Below, in pieces: positions 1-7,080 of a DNA stretch of 38,404 bases. Source of the DNA: Armatimonadota bacterium. GTDB lineage: Bacteria > Armatimonadota > JAAZEB01. Each line of letters begins with the position of its first letter. The stretch's first letter is position 1. Below the pieces are notes generated by a model. That model was not told where the DNA came from and searched no databases. It worked only from the letters and a program-made list of their open reading frames with translations. The stretch spans positions 1-38,404 of the forward strand of contig JAAZEB010000073.1 of NCBI GenBank assembly GCA_012512505.1, read 5' to 3'. The position numbers were made by a program, and so were the translations under genes.

Positions 1-605
1 AAGCTGCTGCCCCCGAAGCCGCCGTAGCTGCCGCCGCCCATTCCCATGCTACCGCCGCTCATCGACTGGCCCTGAAGCAGGGCAGCGGCATACCAAGGAT
101 CGAGGTGGCGCAACGGAATGGAGATCAGTTCGCCCGCCACCGCGTTGGTCGAGCTCGCGGCAGTACCCGGCCCGACCCCCGCACGCGGCGCTCCGGCACC
201 CGGACCAGGCCCCGGCTGCGCACCCGCACCCGCACCCGGGCCGACGACCTGCGCCGCCTCCTTGGGCTTGATCATGTAGACGCCGTCAACGACGTTGTAC
301 TCCAGGCCGCGGCTCTCCAGCAGAATCCGCAGCGCCTGCTCGCGCTCGATGTTGTCCAGCCGCAGCGTGACGCCGGTCCCGTAGACGCCCTGGGCGACCA
401 CGTGGTTCAGCGACGTGTCCTTGAAGATCAAGTCGATCGCGTCGCGCAGGTTCGCGTCGCGTAGGTCGATCGAGATCTTCTCTTTGGCGGGATCCTCTTG
501 TGCGATCACCGGTGCGGCCAGCATGCTCACTCCCAGGCAGGCGCCGAGGAGCAGGCTGCCCACGCGCCAACCGCGAGCCTTGCCTGGCCTTTGACCGTTA
601 CACAT
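1..605 (-). CDS. pilQ: PilQ-type secretin, N-terminal part (cut by window edge)
   Basis: Outer-membrane secretin of a type IV pilus or type II secretion machine; only about the first 201 residues are present because the gene runs off the left edge. It is absent from the ORF track as a full entry, but the frame is open from an ATG at 605 preceded by a GGAGG-type ribosome site. The product starts with a signal peptide (hydrophobic run ending near AAPVIAQE). It continues with a secretin short N-terminal domain at about residues 44-105 (ISIDLRDANLRDAIDLIF, then ALRILLESRGLEYNVVDGVY), a Gly/Pro/Ala linker, and the start of the next N domain (ISIPLRHLDPWYAAALL). A Gly/Met/Ser-rich stretch follows at the edge. 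It is the last visible gene of a pilM-N-O-P-Q series, so the PilQ call rests on both domain and gene order. A GspD-like name is the main alternative. Confidence 0.85.
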   Translation of the reverse strand, partial: MCNGQRPGKARGWRVGSLLLGACLGVSMLAAPVIAQEDPAKEKISIDLRDANLRDAIDLIFKDTSLNHVVAQGVYGTGVTLRLDNIEREQALRILLESRGLEYNVVDGVYMIKPKEAAQVVGPGAGAGAQPGPGPGAGAPRAGVGPGTAASSTNAVAGELISIPLRHLDPWYAAALLQGQSMSGGSMGMGGGSYGGFGGSS

Positions 606-876: not shown

Positions 877-1911
877 TTAGCCGCCCTTGGGCATCATCCC
901 CGGCATCATCCCCGGCCCGGGCATACCGGCCTTGGGGCCGCCCATGCCTGGCCCCATCATCCCGGGGCCGGGTCCTGGCATCCCCTGCATCCCGGGGCCC
1001 ATGCCGGGCATCATCCCCGGCCCGGGCATACCGGCCTTGGGGCCGCCCATGCCTGGGCCCAGCCCGGCGGGCCGCGCGGTATCGCTCTCCTTCAGGCTCA
1101 CCGCGATCTCCTCGCGCTTGGTGCCATCCAGGCGAACCAGCACCATCTCATCGCGCGAGATCGAGCGCACCCAGAGGTTCTCGTCGATCTGGTCGCCCGG
1201 CCGGACGATCTCTTGCTTCTCCTTGCCGGCGGTTTCCAGAATGGCGTAGACGCGCCCATTCCACAGCACGCCGGACATCCGCCGCTTGATATCGGCGGCA
1301 ATCTCATCCGATCCCTTGGCGACCACGCTGGTCGGGATCACGTTCACGGTGGGAGGCACCAACAGCGGCTGCGGCGCGTCGTTCACCACCACGATCGGGG
1401 GCAGCACCGGCCGCGGCAGCGCCGCCACCTGCGGGCGACGGGTTGGCACGAACGGATCCGCCCGGTAAGGCTCCACCGGCGCTCCCTTGGGGATGCTGGT
1501 GCCGTCTCCCTCACCGGAGGCGGGTGCCAGCGCCGCGCCCTCACCCGGCTCGGACGCCGCCGGAGCGGCCGCGCCAGCCCCAGGGCCCCCCATCATGCCA
1601 GGAGCGCCGCCCATCATCCCGGGCGCGCCACCCATACCGGGTCCACCCATGCCGGGTCCGCCCATTCCCGGGCCGCCCTTGCCCATCATCCCCGGAGGGC
1701 CGCTCATGCCGGGTCCGCCCATCATCCCAGGGCCCATCCCGGGGCCCATCCCCGGAGCGCCACCCTTCCCCATCATGCCGGGCGCCTGCGCGGTTTCGGA
1801 GGATCCCTTACCCTTGACGAGGAAGACCACGGTGATGATCAGGAGGACCGCTACCGCTCCTATCACAATGCAGAGGTTCTTCTTGTTCTGCGTCAGTTCG
1901 TCGAGCTTCAC
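877..1911 (-). CDS. pilP: PilP-like pilus assembly protein with two Met-Gly-Pro blocks
   Basis: Periplasmic/inner-membrane partner that links the PilNO complex to the secretin. The start is GTG at 1911 with a GAGGGAG site upstream. Residues about 13-33 are one membrane segment, so it seems to be membrane-anchored and not a lipoprotein like classical PilP. Residues 43-112 are a GPGM/GGPGM/APGMM low-complexity block. Residues about 150-275 hold the PilP-like beta domain (YRADPFVPTRRPQ, then VLWNGRVYAILE, VRPGDQI, VRSISRDEMVLVR). Residues about 283-344 form a second Met-Gly-Pro block ending MMPKGG. The family call rests on position between pilO and pilQ, the 'DPF' entry and the small beta domain; sequence identity to known PilP is not judged here. 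The C-terminal block contains an exact 50-bp DNA repeat. Confidence 0.75.
   Translation of the reverse strand: MKLDELTQNKKNLCIVIGAVAVLLIITVVFLVKGKGSSETAQAPGMMGKGGAPGMGPGMGPGMMGGPGMSGPPGMMGKGGPGMGGPGMGGPGMGGAPGMMGGAPGMMGGPGAGAAAPAASEPGEGAALAPASGEGDGTSIPKGAPVEPYRADPFVPTRRPQVAALPRPVLPPIVVVNDAPQPLLVPPTVNVIPTSVVAKGSDEIAADIKRRMSGVLWNGRVYAILETAGKEKQEIVRPGDQIDENLWVRSISRDEMVLVRLDGTKREEIAVSLKESDTARPAGLGPGMGGPKAGMPGPGMMPGMGPGMQGMPGPGPGMMGPGMGGPKAGMPGPGMMPGMMPKGG
902..1056. repeat. Two identical 50-bp direct repeats inside pilP
   Basis: A 50-bp stretch at 902-951 recurs without mismatch at 1007-1056, exactly 105 bp (35 codons) away. It encodes the C-terminal GGPKAGMPGPGMMPGM-type segment of PilP. The in-frame spacing means gain or loss of a unit would leave the protein readable. 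Confidence 0.9.
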
Positions 1912-2033
1912 GCCGCTGCTCCCTCACAAGGCCGGCCGGCACCGGGTTCGACCGTGGGCGAACCCGGCCCGCATCCACACCGCGCGGCCGCGGGCATTGC
2001 CGGATGGGCGGATGCCAGTGTCAGCAAGGCTGC

Positions 2034-2963
2034 TTAACCTCCGGCGCCCCCTTTGCCCATCATCCCGGGCGCGCCACCCATGCCAGGTCCACCCATGCCA
2101 GGGCCGCCCATTCCCGGGCCACCCATTCCGGGGCCCATGCCCGGGCCACCCATTCCTGGTCCGCCCATGCCAGGTCCACCCATGCCGGGTCCGCCCATCC
2201 CGGGGCCCATGCCCATCCCCGGCCCGCCCATCATGCCGCCGCCAGCGGCCGGCGCGCCTCCACCGCTATCGCCACCCTTCACCAGGTAGTAGACGGTCAG
2301 GGGCACAGTGACGGTCAGGTTCGGGCTTTCGCCACTAATGGAGGGGGCGCCCACCGCCACCAGGCGCGGGGCGCGGGTGAAGGAGCGGAGGAAACTGATC
2401 ACGTGCGGCAGGCCGCGGGTGGTGCGCACGGTCACGCTGCCGAGGTTGATGGTATACCATCCCGGCGAGATCCCGGCGGGGGTCTCCGGCGGCTTGGGCA
2501 CGGAGATGATCCCGGCGCCGGTTCCGGAGCGGAAGCGCTGGCCAGTCAACAGGTTGGCGAAGGCATCGCCGGCGGCACCTTCCATGATCACCCCGGTGCT
2601 GGCGATGTGGCGTTCCATCAGCGGGCCGAGCACCTCGGCCTGCTCCCGCCACAAGCGCACCATGGTGTGGTACTTCTCTACCTCACTGGTGAGGGAGAGC
2701 GGGATCATCTTGGTGTTCTGGTAGAAGTTGAGGCGCCGCTCGGCCGCCCGCAGATTGGCCCGGGCCTGCTTGCGCGCGGCAATCGCCGCCGGGAGCTGGC
2801 CGGCCGCCGACTTCGTTTGGGTGAGCGTGGCGTTCAGTTGCGCGATCTCCTCCTGCTGCTTCTTAATCATCAGGAAGTACAGCGACCCGCCGATGATCGC
2901 ACACACCACGGCCCCGATGATGAGGACCTGAACCCAGGTTATCTTAGCCAGAGCGCCACGCAC
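2034..2963 (-). CDS. pilO: PilO-like pilus assembly protein with Met-Gly-Pro tail
   Basis: Inner-membrane pilus alignment protein that would pair with PilN. The start is GTG at 2963, with GGAG about nine bases upstream. One membrane segment lies at residues about 11-33 (VLIIGAVVCAIIGGSLYFL), followed by a coiled coil (KKQQEEIAQLNATLTQTK to RAAERRLNFYQNTK). A ferredoxin-like periplasmic domain runs to about residue 228 (YTINLGSVTVRTTRGLPHVISFLRSF, spread over two elements; LTVTVPLTVYYLV). The last 80 residues (230-309) are almost only Gly, Pro and Met in GGPGM repeats, ending MMGKGGAGG. Typical PilO proteins are about 200 residues and lack such a tail. It lies 129 bp after pilN and 122 bp before pilP on the same strand. 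Confidence 0.8.
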   Translation of the reverse strand: MRGALAKITWVQVLIIGAVVCAIIGGSLYFLMIKKQQEEIAQLNATLTQTKSAAGQLPAAIAARKQARANLRAAERRLNFYQNTKMIPLSLTSEVEKYHTMVRLWREQAEVLGPLMERHIASTGVIMEGAAGDAFANLLTGQRFRSGTGAGIISVPKPPETPAGISPGWYTINLGSVTVRTTRGLPHVISFLRSFTRAPRLVAVGAPSISGESPNLTVTVPLTVYYLVKGGDSGGGAPAAGGGMMGGPGMGMGPGMGGPGMGGPGMGGPGMGGPGMGPGMGGPGMGGPGMGGPGMGGAPGMMGKGGAGG

Positions 2964-3092
2964 TTGCGTTCACTCCAATCCTCGGGCACTGCCCGGGCAC
3001 CAGCATCGTTGTCTCCGACGCCTGCCCGGGAAGGTCACCCCGCGCGCCACCCGCCGGCTGCCAGGCCGGCGTCGGCGCTACCACCCAGCCGG

Positions 3093-3899
3093 CTAACCGC
3101 CTTTGGGCCCCATCCCCGGTCCCATGCCGCCAGCAGGGGCTCCCGGACCCATGCCGGGCCCCATACCGCCAGGTGCCCCCGGTCCCATGCCAGGCCCCAT
3201 GCCGCCAGGTGCCCCCGGTCCCATACCGGGGCCCATCCCCGGACCCATGCCGGGGCCCATGCCCGGCCCGCCCATCATGCCGCCACCGCCGGCCGGCGCG
3301 CCCCCACCGCCACCGGGCGAGGGCATCGTCACCGTGTTGGCGAGAGTAGCGGTAATCTGCAGATCATAGCCCACCGGCCCAAAGCGGGGGTGGATCCCCT
3401 CGCCCGGCGAGGTGCCGGGGTAACCGGCCGGGCCATTGATCTGAACATTGGTCCACTCGCTGTTGCGCAGCGCGTTGAGCAGGTAGCGCGCGGCGGTGCG
3501 CATATCCGGGGTGTAGCCCTGCATCGAGAGCGTGTTGCCGGAGATGCTCAACGAGCGCAGCGGCACGCTGGCGTGGGTGTACTCGGTGGCGTTCCGGATA
3601 ATCGCCACCCACTTCTCCGGGAGGGCCACCACCTGGTCGCAGAAGCTGGTCAGCGCCTGGGTGGGGGCAATCATCGCGGTGATCGCGTCGGCCTCTCCCT
3701 GGATGCGCTGCGCCTTCTCCATGTCCGGCTTGTACTGGTCGATCTCCGCCTGGACTGCCGCGATCTCCTTCTGCAACTGGGCGTTCCAGTAGAGGAAGCC
3801 GCCGGTAGTGGCAATGATAGCAAGCACCACCGCCACGAGGGCGCGCTTGACGAGACGGCGCTGGCGGAAATAGGACGGCAGCAGGTTGATCTTCAGCAT
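3093..3899 (-). CDS. pilN: PilN pilus assembly protein with Met-Gly-Pro tail
   Basis: Inner-membrane protein whose cytoplasmic N-terminus binds PilM. The ATG at 3899 is chosen over the longer track start because it places the family motif INLLP at residues 4-8 and lies one base after the pilM stop, implying translational coupling. A membrane segment follows at about 20-40 (LVAVVLAIIATTGGFLYW), then a coiled coil (QLQKEIAAVQAEIDQYKPDM) and a periplasmic domain to about residue 185 (LRSLSISGNTLSMQGYTPD). Residues 196-268 are a GPGM/GAPGG low-complexity tail ending GMGPKGG. Without the tail the length matches normal PilN. The track's extra 11 N-terminal residues overlap pilM and are rejected. 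Confidence 0.85.
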   Translation of the reverse strand: MLKINLLPSYFRQRRLVKRALVAVVLAIIATTGGFLYWNAQLQKEIAAVQAEIDQYKPDMEKAQRIQGEADAITAMIAPTQALTSFCDQVVALPEKWVAIIRNATEYTHASVPLRSLSISGNTLSMQGYTPDMRTAARYLLNALRNSEWTNVQINGPAGYPGTSPGEGIHPRFGPVGYDLQITATLANTVTMPSPGGGGGAPAGGGGMMGGPGMGPGMGPGMGPGMGPGAPGGMGPGMGPGAPGGMGPGMGPGAPAGGMGPGMGPKGG

Positions 3900-3900
3900 C

Positions 3901-5451
3901 TCAGAATACCGTCTCTCGCAGCCCCAGACCAACGCTCACCGTGAACAACGGAGCGATCTGCTGCAAGTAGTCCGGGGGATACTGGGTTGACTGCACCGGC
4001 ACCGCCTGGAAGGGATTGGCGATTACCACCGGCACGGACAGTTCGCTGGAGAGGAGCTCGTCCAGGTTCTTCAGACGAGCGGTGCCGCCACTCAGCATGA
4101 CCACGTCGACGTTGGCGTCACTGGAGCGTCCACGGTAGTAGTCGAGCGACCGCTTGATCTCGGTCACCAGGTCACTCACCGGTTCCCTGATTATAGCAAA
4201 CACCTGCCCGGGTGTCAATTCCTGGGAGGACGCCCCCGTGGGCTCCGCGCCGGTGTCGGTGGCCTCGACGCCGAAGGCGCTCAGGTCGAAGGCATCCTCG
4301 CCGCCAGCGGCGAAGGGAGAGGCCTCTGTCTCCGCGGCGGGAGCGTCAAACGGCGAGGCGGCGGGCGCGGGCTCTTCGGCGGCCGCGAAGGGGCTGGCGG
4401 TCGGGGCAGCCGCCTCTTCCTCCTCGTTGAGCTGGAAGGGCGACCACTGGGGCGCGGCGGCCTCTTCCTCCGCCGCGGCAGCGAACGGCGACACCACCGC
4501 CTCGGGGGCAGCCTCTGCCTCGGGGGCAGCCTCCGCCTCGGGGGCAGCCTCCGCCTCGGTCGCAAACGGGTTGAACAGGGTGGTCTCCGCGCCGCCTTCC
4601 GCTTCCTCGGCGGGGGCGCCAAACGGCGAGGCGCCAAACCCGAACGCATCGGCGCCGCCGCCAAACACGTCGGCGGCGCTGGGCACCTGGGTGAAGCCCT
4701 CGAGGTCCACCTCGGCGTACTGCTTCTTGATGCGCTCCGCCTCTTGCTTGTCGATGTTCAGCGAGCTGGCAATCGCCTGGGTGATCGCGTCGCCGGCATG
4801 GGCGATACTGCGCTGGAAGAGGATCTGCCCGTCGCGGATCACGCTCACATCGGTGATCTGGGCGCCAACGTCCACCAGGGCCACGGTGCGCGGTGTGCTG
4901 CCGCCGGTGCTGTTTGGCGCATCCACCAGCGCCCGCCCGGCCGCCAGCGGCTCCACGTCGATGGCGAGCGGTTGGAGGCCGGCGCCGGTGATCGCGTCGA
5001 GATGGGTGCTGATCATCTCCTGCTGGGCCACTACCAGCAGCACCTCCATCGTCTGCGCCTCGGGCGGCGCATCCGGACGGTGGATCACCTGGTAGTCCAT
5101 CTCCAGCGCCGAGGAGGCGAACGGCACGTGCCGCTCCACCTCCCACTTCATCGTCTCCGCCAGCTCCTTCTCGGTCATCTTCGGCACCTCAATGATGCGG
5201 ATGACCAAGGCCGACTGGCCGCCCACCGAACTGACCACGTGCCGCTCGCGGGCGCCGCAGCTTCCCAGCAACTCGCGGATCGCCGCCGTGAGCGCTTCCA
5301 CGTCGACGACCACGCTCTGGTTGACGCTGTCCGGCGGGGTAGGCGCGATGCCCAGGGCCGAGACGTGCGGGCGCCCGCCACTGACGCGGATCTCCGCCGC
5401 CTTGATGGTGGTGTTGCCGATATCTAAGCCGATGACTGCTTTCACGCCCAT
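3901..5451 (-). CDS. pilM: PilM actin-like pilus assembly ATPase with long Ala/Glu-rich insert
   Basis: Cytoplasmic actin-fold protein that recruits PilN to the pilus base. Nucleotide-site motifs are visible: GLDIGNTTIKAAEI (residues about 8-21), DVGAQITDVSVI (phosphate 2) and MLSGGTARLKNLDELL (adenosine). MKWEVERHVPF is also typical of PilM. The protein is 516 residues against about 350-380 for the family. The excess is one insert at about residues 252-405, between QEAERIKKQYAEV and FAIIREPVSDLVTEIKRSLDYY. It is rich in Ala, Glu and Pro and contains seven [S/N]PF motifs and three identical EAEAAP hexads. The start is ATG at 5451; a small upstream ORF overlaps it by ten bases. It is first in the pilMNOPQ series. 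Confidence 0.9.
   Translation of the reverse strand: MGVKAVIGLDIGNTTIKAAEIRVSGGRPHVSALGIAPTPPDSVNQSVVVDVEALTAAIRELLGSCGARERHVVSSVGGQSALVIRIIEVPKMTEKELAETMKWEVERHVPFASSALEMDYQVIHRPDAPPEAQTMEVLLVVAQQEMISTHLDAITGAGLQPLAIDVEPLAAGRALVDAPNSTGGSTPRTVALVDVGAQITDVSVIRDGQILFQRSIAHAGDAITQAIASSLNIDKQEAERIKKQYAEVDLEGFTQVPSAADVFGGGADAFGFGASPFGAPAEEAEGGAETTLFNPFATEAEAAPEAEAAPEAEAAPEAVVSPFAAAAEEEAAAPQWSPFQLNEEEEAAAPTASPFAAAEEPAPAASPFDAPAAETEASPFAAGGEDAFDLSAFGVEATDTGAEPTGASSQELTPGQVFAIIREPVSDLVTEIKRSLDYYRGRSSDANVDVVMLSGGTARLKNLDELLSSELSVPVVIANPFQAVPVQSTQYPPDYLQQIAPLFTVSVGLGLRETVF
4499..4558. repeat. 18-bp tandem repeats coding EAEAAP in pilM
   Basis: About three head-to-tail copies of an 18-bp unit (plus strand GCCTCGGGGGCAGCCTCC with one substitution) encode the EAEAAP hexads of the PilM insert. 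The repeat is in frame, so copy-number change would alter insert length only. Confidence 0.85.
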
Positions 5452-6682: not shown

Positions 6683-6861
6683 CGGCGCGGCATGGCCCAC
6701 TCCCCCACCGCCGCGGCCGGCGCGTCCGTTGCCGCTCACCGCCCACTCCGGTGCCTGCCCCGCGCGCCTACGTTTGGTGCCAGACAACCAGGGGTAAAGC
6801 GGCGTTGACCAGGCCATCCCTGCACCCAGATGCCCTGGCGCACAGCAAAGGAGGCATTCCA

Positions 6862-7080
6862 ATGGCAGAAGGTGACCTGACGGTACGTGAGGCAGGGAAG
6901 AAAGGCGGCGAGATCCGCAAGCAGCAACTCGGTCACGAGGGCTACGAGGAGATCGGCCGCCTCGGTGGCCAGGCCCGCAAAGAGGAACTCGGCCACGAGG
7001 GTTACGAGGAGCTCGGCCAGAAAGGGGGTCAGCGCGTCCGCGAGCTGATCCAGAAGGGCAAGGAAGCCGAGTCGCGGTAG
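6862..7080 (+). CDS. KGG-repeat general stress protein
   Basis: A 72-residue hydrophilic protein of the stress-induced KGG / LEA-like family (related to YciG/GsiB-type proteins), thought to protect cells during desiccation or general stress. Repeats are visible as [38 protein letters not shown] and [12 protein letters not shown]. The start is the ATG at 6862, with an excellent AAAGGAGG site seven bases upstream (6847-6854). The track's upstream methionine at 6751 is not supported. The gene stands alone. Similar proteins are usually under general-stress control, but no specific site is seen here. Confidence 0.9.

Follow-up and report, generated by a model that had tools for sequence, protein, structure and literature searches.

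Introduction

The described system closest to the locus reported here is the type IVa pilus alignment complex, which consists of PilM, PilN, PilO, and PilP together with the secretin PilQ. The present operon is like this complex in gene order, in PilM homology, and in the modelled folds of PilO and PilP, but differs from it in having a helix-anchored PilP, an STN domain placed on a separate protein, and long, matched tails that are predicted to be disordered. No description of such pilus-protein tails was found in a literature search; in a paper on a Fimbriimonas genome, pilus genes and 79 pseudopilins of the PulG type are mentioned, but tails are not.

Results

The pil operon and its tails

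The window, that is, the whole stretch of 38,404 nucleotides that was analysed, comes from a 5.66 Mb MAG of Armatimonadota. The closest named relative locus is that of Armatimonadetes bacterium AS09scLD_344 (PilM 58% identical), the named relatives in the public collection being Armatimonadota. The following features were assigned.

3–605, minus strand: STN-domain protein ("SecN"; STN, E = 4.3e-9), truncated by the window edge, with its own Gly-rich tail
877–1911, minus strand: PilP, membrane-anchored, with a beta domain at residues 208–273 (AlphaFold model)
880–1056, minus strand: C-terminal G/P/M tail of PilP, about 60 residues, ending in PKGG, with a 50-bp internal direct repeat
1576–1785, minus strand: first G/P/M block of PilP, past the membrane helix (residues 44–111, 91% G/P/M, 16 Met)
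2034–2963, minus strand: PilO (AlphaFold model matching Pseudomonas aeruginosa PilO, 2rjz and 5uvr, probability 1.00)
2037–2243, minus strand: PilO tail of GGPGM repeats, ending in GKGGAGG (residues 241–309, 96% G/P/M, 15 Met)
3093–3899, minus strand: PilN, with an LKINLLP start, membrane helix, PilN-like core, and tail (PilM-N-O-P order, phylum-wide conserved profile)
3096–3326, minus strand: PilN tail of GPGM/GAPGGM tandem repeats, ending in GPKGG (residues 192–268, 90% G/P/M, 13 Met)
3901–5451, minus strand: PilM (PilM_2, E = 2.9e-58), encoded first in the PilM-N-O-P order

Pfam gave no match for PilO or PilP of the window, and both identities were confirmed at the level of structure models, the best PDB matches being PilO (3jc8, 2rjz, and 5uvr; probability about 1.00, E = 1e-3 to 2e-2) for the PilO model and PilP (3jc8 and 2y4y) together with GspC (3oss) for the PilP model (probability 1.00). 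The remaining tailed protein is probably PilN, as judged from its N-terminal INLLP, a Pfam PilN match of 16.5 bits, under the cut-off of 22.8, and synteny. By genes and models, PilMNOP of the window would constitute a type IV pilus complex with a predicted pilus function.

The Gly-Pro-Met tails of PilN, PilO, and PilP, which had first been described from the sequence alone, proved to be real in their coordinates, sequences, repeats, and GPKGG, GKGGAGG, and PKGG ends, as did the additional PilP block C-terminal of the membrane segment. The G/P/M segments scored 53–61.5 in the three proteins, whereas 500 shuffled versions of these sequences did not exceed 18, and they are underlain by tandem repeats with periods of 12, 15, 36, and 57–72 bp. 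The tails are predicted to be disordered, with pLDDT below about 50. A PKGG-stop ending occurs in a tail only in PilN and PilP genome-wide; a third stop-compatible match falls in no tail ORF. In contrast, the "PilQ" with Gly/Pro and Gly/Met linkers that had been placed at 3–605 turned out to be the small, separate, edge-truncated STN-domain protein and not a full secretin; its Gly-rich tail served as a control in the comparisons of tail wording below.

Two side observations were made in the window. An Ala/Pro/Glu-rich low-complexity insert (SPFAAA/EAAPEA repeats) of variable length among relatives separates the conserved halves of PilM (3901–5451), and a small protein encoded at 6751–7080 on the plus strand carries repeats that, judged by eye, resemble stress proteins of the Con-10/GsiB type.

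Distribution of the tails

Profile searches of the fetched loci for PilN, PilO, and PilP yielded 72 distinct genomes in which two or all three of these proteins were recovered. The last 40 residues contained at least 35% Gly plus Pro in 63 of 72 PilN, 65 of 72 PilO, and 49 of 67 PilP proteins. The same scan revealed no tails in 12 loci outside the phylum (Methylomirabilota, Nitrospirota, and Proteobacteria), and the additional, paralogous PilMNOP operons present in 13 of the Armatimonadota genomes likewise had none, the nearest feature there being a short Ala/Pro stretch in one genome (G003). Thus, the tail is tied to one machine, rather than to the PilN, PilO, and PilP families or to a high-GC composition. 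The original statement that nothing of this kind is standard in the families therefore holds outside the phylum, where the 12 loci are tail-free, but not inside Armatimonadota, where G/P-rich tails are usual on this operon. Relatives retain the tails and the variation among them is linked; neither the general loss nor the random variation that had been named as contrary outcomes was seen.

The SecN genes of loci L051–L153 were also found to encode Gly-rich tails phylum-wide, most of which close with an aromatic residue or with Arg (GGF, RRW, RRY, or GFGR); the SecN tails downstream of pilP form a second, different tail class.

Matching of tail wording within genomes

The wording of the tails varies by genome (GPGM, GGPPMPGG, GGGRGxE-stop, or MRGGG) and agrees among PilN, PilO, and PilP of each. 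Thus, GGPPMPGG is found in all three proteins of G003, GGGRGxE closes each of the three in G009, GAPMMGGPMM is common to PilN and PilO of G053, and GGGMRGGG occurs in G047; elsewhere, the shared terminal residues are GKGxD (L152), RYGMxGT, or EEY. In a set of 47 divergent genomes, three measures of similarity between tails of one genome (4-mer content, the longest run in common, and identity of the last five residues) all exceeded both permuted pairings (z 5–14) and composition shuffles. Permutation z values such as these overstate the certainty because the genomes are not fully independent. The neighbouring STN protein, with its Gly/aromatic tail, gave no match beyond composition shuffles in the same genomes. 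For the last five residues, the same-genome value was 1.2–1.3 as compared with 0.6–0.7 across genomes (z 5–6).

A stricter comparison, with the nearest relative of less than 75% identity, weakened the PilN–PilO effect yet kept it (p = 1.6e-4; p = 0.0055 at 50–75% identity), and the PilP effects were weak. Among close relatives (>75% identity), most of the agreement between tails is inherited and has not been established anew, indicating that turnover is slow. Collectively, wording that agrees within genomes and differs between them, despite controls for composition, phylogeny, and neighbouring genes, supports the proposal that the three tails share a common job.

Methionine-based metal binding, which had been suggested as such a job, was not supported. 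The Met content ranges from abundant to none among genomes; Met is missing from the last 40 residues in 12–16 genomes per gene, so metal binding is not the general role. Moreover, the Met spacing, considered with Met-motif copper-binding proteins in mind, is not conserved across relatives. It is extremely improbable that the Met-rich tails bind copper or scavenge oxidants, despite the 13–16 Met per block in the window genome, since the Met-free tails of many relatives match one another equally (e.g., G010 and L121).

Two unlinked families carrying the same wording

A scan of the 5.66 Mb window genome for GPGM-G-x-GM gave 16 matches, compared with none in the reversed control. Outside PilN, PilO, and PilP, the matched proteins were two encoded in tandem on contig C46 and a single one each on C221 and C292. 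In G009, the pattern GGGRGxE-stop was matched four times, in PilN, PilO, PilP, and one protein homologous to the C46 pair (E = 1e-11 outside the repeats). This family, hereafter designated GIR (named after GIRLG), has a signal peptide and gave no credible match in profile searches against Pfam, NCBIfam, and PDB; members occur in 55 of 61 genomes. GIR was not found in the fetched pil loci; its distance from the operon is about 16 kb in G048, where the two share a contig. The C292 protein belongs to a family with an Ig-like domain and signal peptide (BIG; 49 of 61 genomes), a homologue of which (E = 9e-26) was matched in the scan of G053 along with PilN, PilO, and GIR. In G056, only PilN and the GIR pair were matched, and of the 16 matches in G003, the pil operon accounted for 9 and GIR for 3 (all reversed controls, 0). 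Overall, the scans of G003, G053, G004, and G056 identified the pil operon plus GIR and little else, and that of G031 the pil operon only.

In 32 divergent genomes, all ten pairs among PilN, PilO, PilP, GIR, and BIG showed 4-mer matching above permuted genomes (z 4.8–12.1) and above composition shuffles. By comparison, z was 1.8–3.5 for pairings that involved SecN or PilQ, and SecN pairs were mostly at or below the shuffles. Against the nearest relative of less than 75% identity, the match was significant for PilN–GIR (p = 3e-5), PilO–GIR (2e-5), GIR–BIG (4e-4), PilP–GIR (<0.001), and PilN–BIG and PilO–BIG (p < 0.01), and not significant for PilP–BIG (p = 0.30) or the STN pairs. It was motif matches in G000, G009, and G053 that first drew attention to GIR and BIG, so these three genomes are not independent tests; the remaining genomes are independent. 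Many members of the two families carry the wording in an internal linker rather than at the C-terminus. Since these two unlinked families join, the set is wider than PilNOP, and the common wording suggests that PilN, PilO, PilP, GIR, and BIG work together.

The GIR pair of G009 (L194:8221–9856) is flanked by a polyprenyl synthase on one side and by an S41-type C-terminal protease on the other. This protease neighbour was considered and rejected as a lead, the GIR neighbours in the window genome being DnaG primase and an SGNH-like hydrolase instead.

The set is not closed, because some other secreted proteins also carry the wording of their own genomes, namely the C221 protein of the window genome and, in G003, those on C13 and C17. 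In G046, the wording SSPYSGM is found in GIR (and, by alignment, in BIG), not in the pil operon.

Of the two G003 proteins (L248 and L251 on C13 and C17), one is membrane-anchored and contains a DPYTGKPLGY segment, the other is secreted and PKD-like, and both have GGPPMPGG. A signal-peptide protein with a GPGM tail was also observed at L049:3688–4380 (minus strand), sharing PGMMGPGMGGPKAGMPG with PilP (17 residues, 12 identical codons compared with 9.2 expected).

Codon identity in the shared runs

Codon identity was scored at synonymous-capable positions in shared runs of at least 8 residues. Relative to expectation, it was 1.39-fold for Pil–Pil pairs and 1.42-fold within the GIR pair, but 1.13-fold for both Pil–GIR and Pil–BIG and 1.04-fold for GIR–BIG. 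Gene conversion, which had been raised as a means of spreading the tails, is real in places: some pilN/pilO stretches are clearly recent copies, with 20 of 20 codons shared in L067 (9.5 expected) and 15 of 15 in L113, and the pilO tail and first pilP block of the window have a 23-residue run in common with 18 identical codons (11.6 expected) and 27 bp of exact DNA. It is not supported for the rest, where codons are at chance, as in the protein-identical runs of L140 (22 residues, 10 codons compared with 11.0 expected), L137 (22 residues, 11 compared with 11.1), and L152. The matching between unlinked genes is thus independent of recent DNA identity, and the near-chance codon identity indicates that it is carried at the protein level, copying being a local source of repeat material. 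Slippage driven convergently by a common bias may still play some part.

Discussion

The shared wording is well supported, and the mechanism that we infer from it is as follows. Like tails would co-assemble with like in the periplasm, forming a single scaffold or condensate that surrounds the base of the pilus, and the wording would serve as a species-specific address that keeps the correct partners together. New repeats may arise through slippage and occasional copying between neighbouring genes, after which selection for compatibility would hold the partners matched. We favour, tentatively and at slightly less than an even chance, the reading that the tails are disordered, species-specific segments, located on the periplasmic portions of PilN, PilO, and PilP, for co-assembly or addressing that link PilNOP to GIR and BIG. 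A broader form is more doubtful: an "address code" by which separately encoded, non-homologous envelope proteins recognise each other via matching disordered tails that drift in concert under protein-level selection, with GIR and BIG being undescribed pilus components of Armatimonadota.

The main rival is a species-wide dialect of low complexity, in which extracytoplasmic disordered Gly/Pro segments drift alike through shared biases in slippage and composition, with no partner-specific function. It keeps this place because of the wording shared by the C221, C13, and C17 proteins and that confined to GIR and BIG in G046, and it also accounts for the weak residual signal with SecN and PilQ. The adjacent control argues the other way, since the likewise Gly-rich SecN tail does no better than composition shuffles; the genome scans, moreover, match few loci and repeatedly the same families, the C-terminal residues are shared, and the differing codons speak against mere repetition of one DNA sequence. 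We regard such a dialect as unlikely, though a serious contender. The sharing of the last five residues within genomes (z 5–6; e.g., GGGRGxE, EEY, and RYGMxGT) would equally follow if a common third party, such as peptidoglycan, a surface layer, a periplasmic receptor, or a protease reading C-termini, bound all tails, the wording tracking a species-specific ligand or receptor. That arrangement is improbable, because the wording is internal in many GIR and BIG proteins and the receptor is hypothetical. Homogenisation of the tails by gene conversion or copying at the DNA level, with little selection, fits the pilN/pilO codons of L067 and L113, the window pilO/pilP run (18/23), and the elevated Pil–Pil identity; as the sole cause, however, it is refuted by saturated codons, and the chance-level runs of L140 and L137 and the values of about 1.0–1.1-fold for unlinked families leave it very unlikely.

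If the matching reflects co-assembly, proteins that cooperate in a machine could be sought by their shared disordered wording, with neither homology nor gene neighbourhood as a guide. Tail wording already points to GIR and BIG, two secreted families that are nearly universal yet unstudied in a phylum for which genetics is scarce, and species-swappable tails offer natural material for asking whether disordered segments recognise their own kind.

Comparison with known systems

Elastin-like and flagelliform-silk-like proteins are built of Gly/Pro pentads, XPGXG and GPGXX. The present tails are alike in that GGPGM repeats can be read as GPGMG, and in their high Gly/Pro content and predicted disorder, but they are bacterial and periplasmic, and the motif itself varies between species; regular XPGXG pentads are seen in the PilO tail of the window genome and are not kept in relatives.

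In the type II secretion system, the GspB/OutB scaffold ties together the secretin, inner membrane, and cell wall (PMC9239104). As an accessory tying protein, it is a possible analogue for GIR or BIG, the likeness being one of role. Non-homologous, self-assembling insect cuticle proteins share low-complexity motifs (e.g., PMC2932725). The two cases are alike in that different families of one structure share short low-complexity motifs; they differ in that the wording described here is genome-specific, turns over between species, and is carried on a pilus machine.
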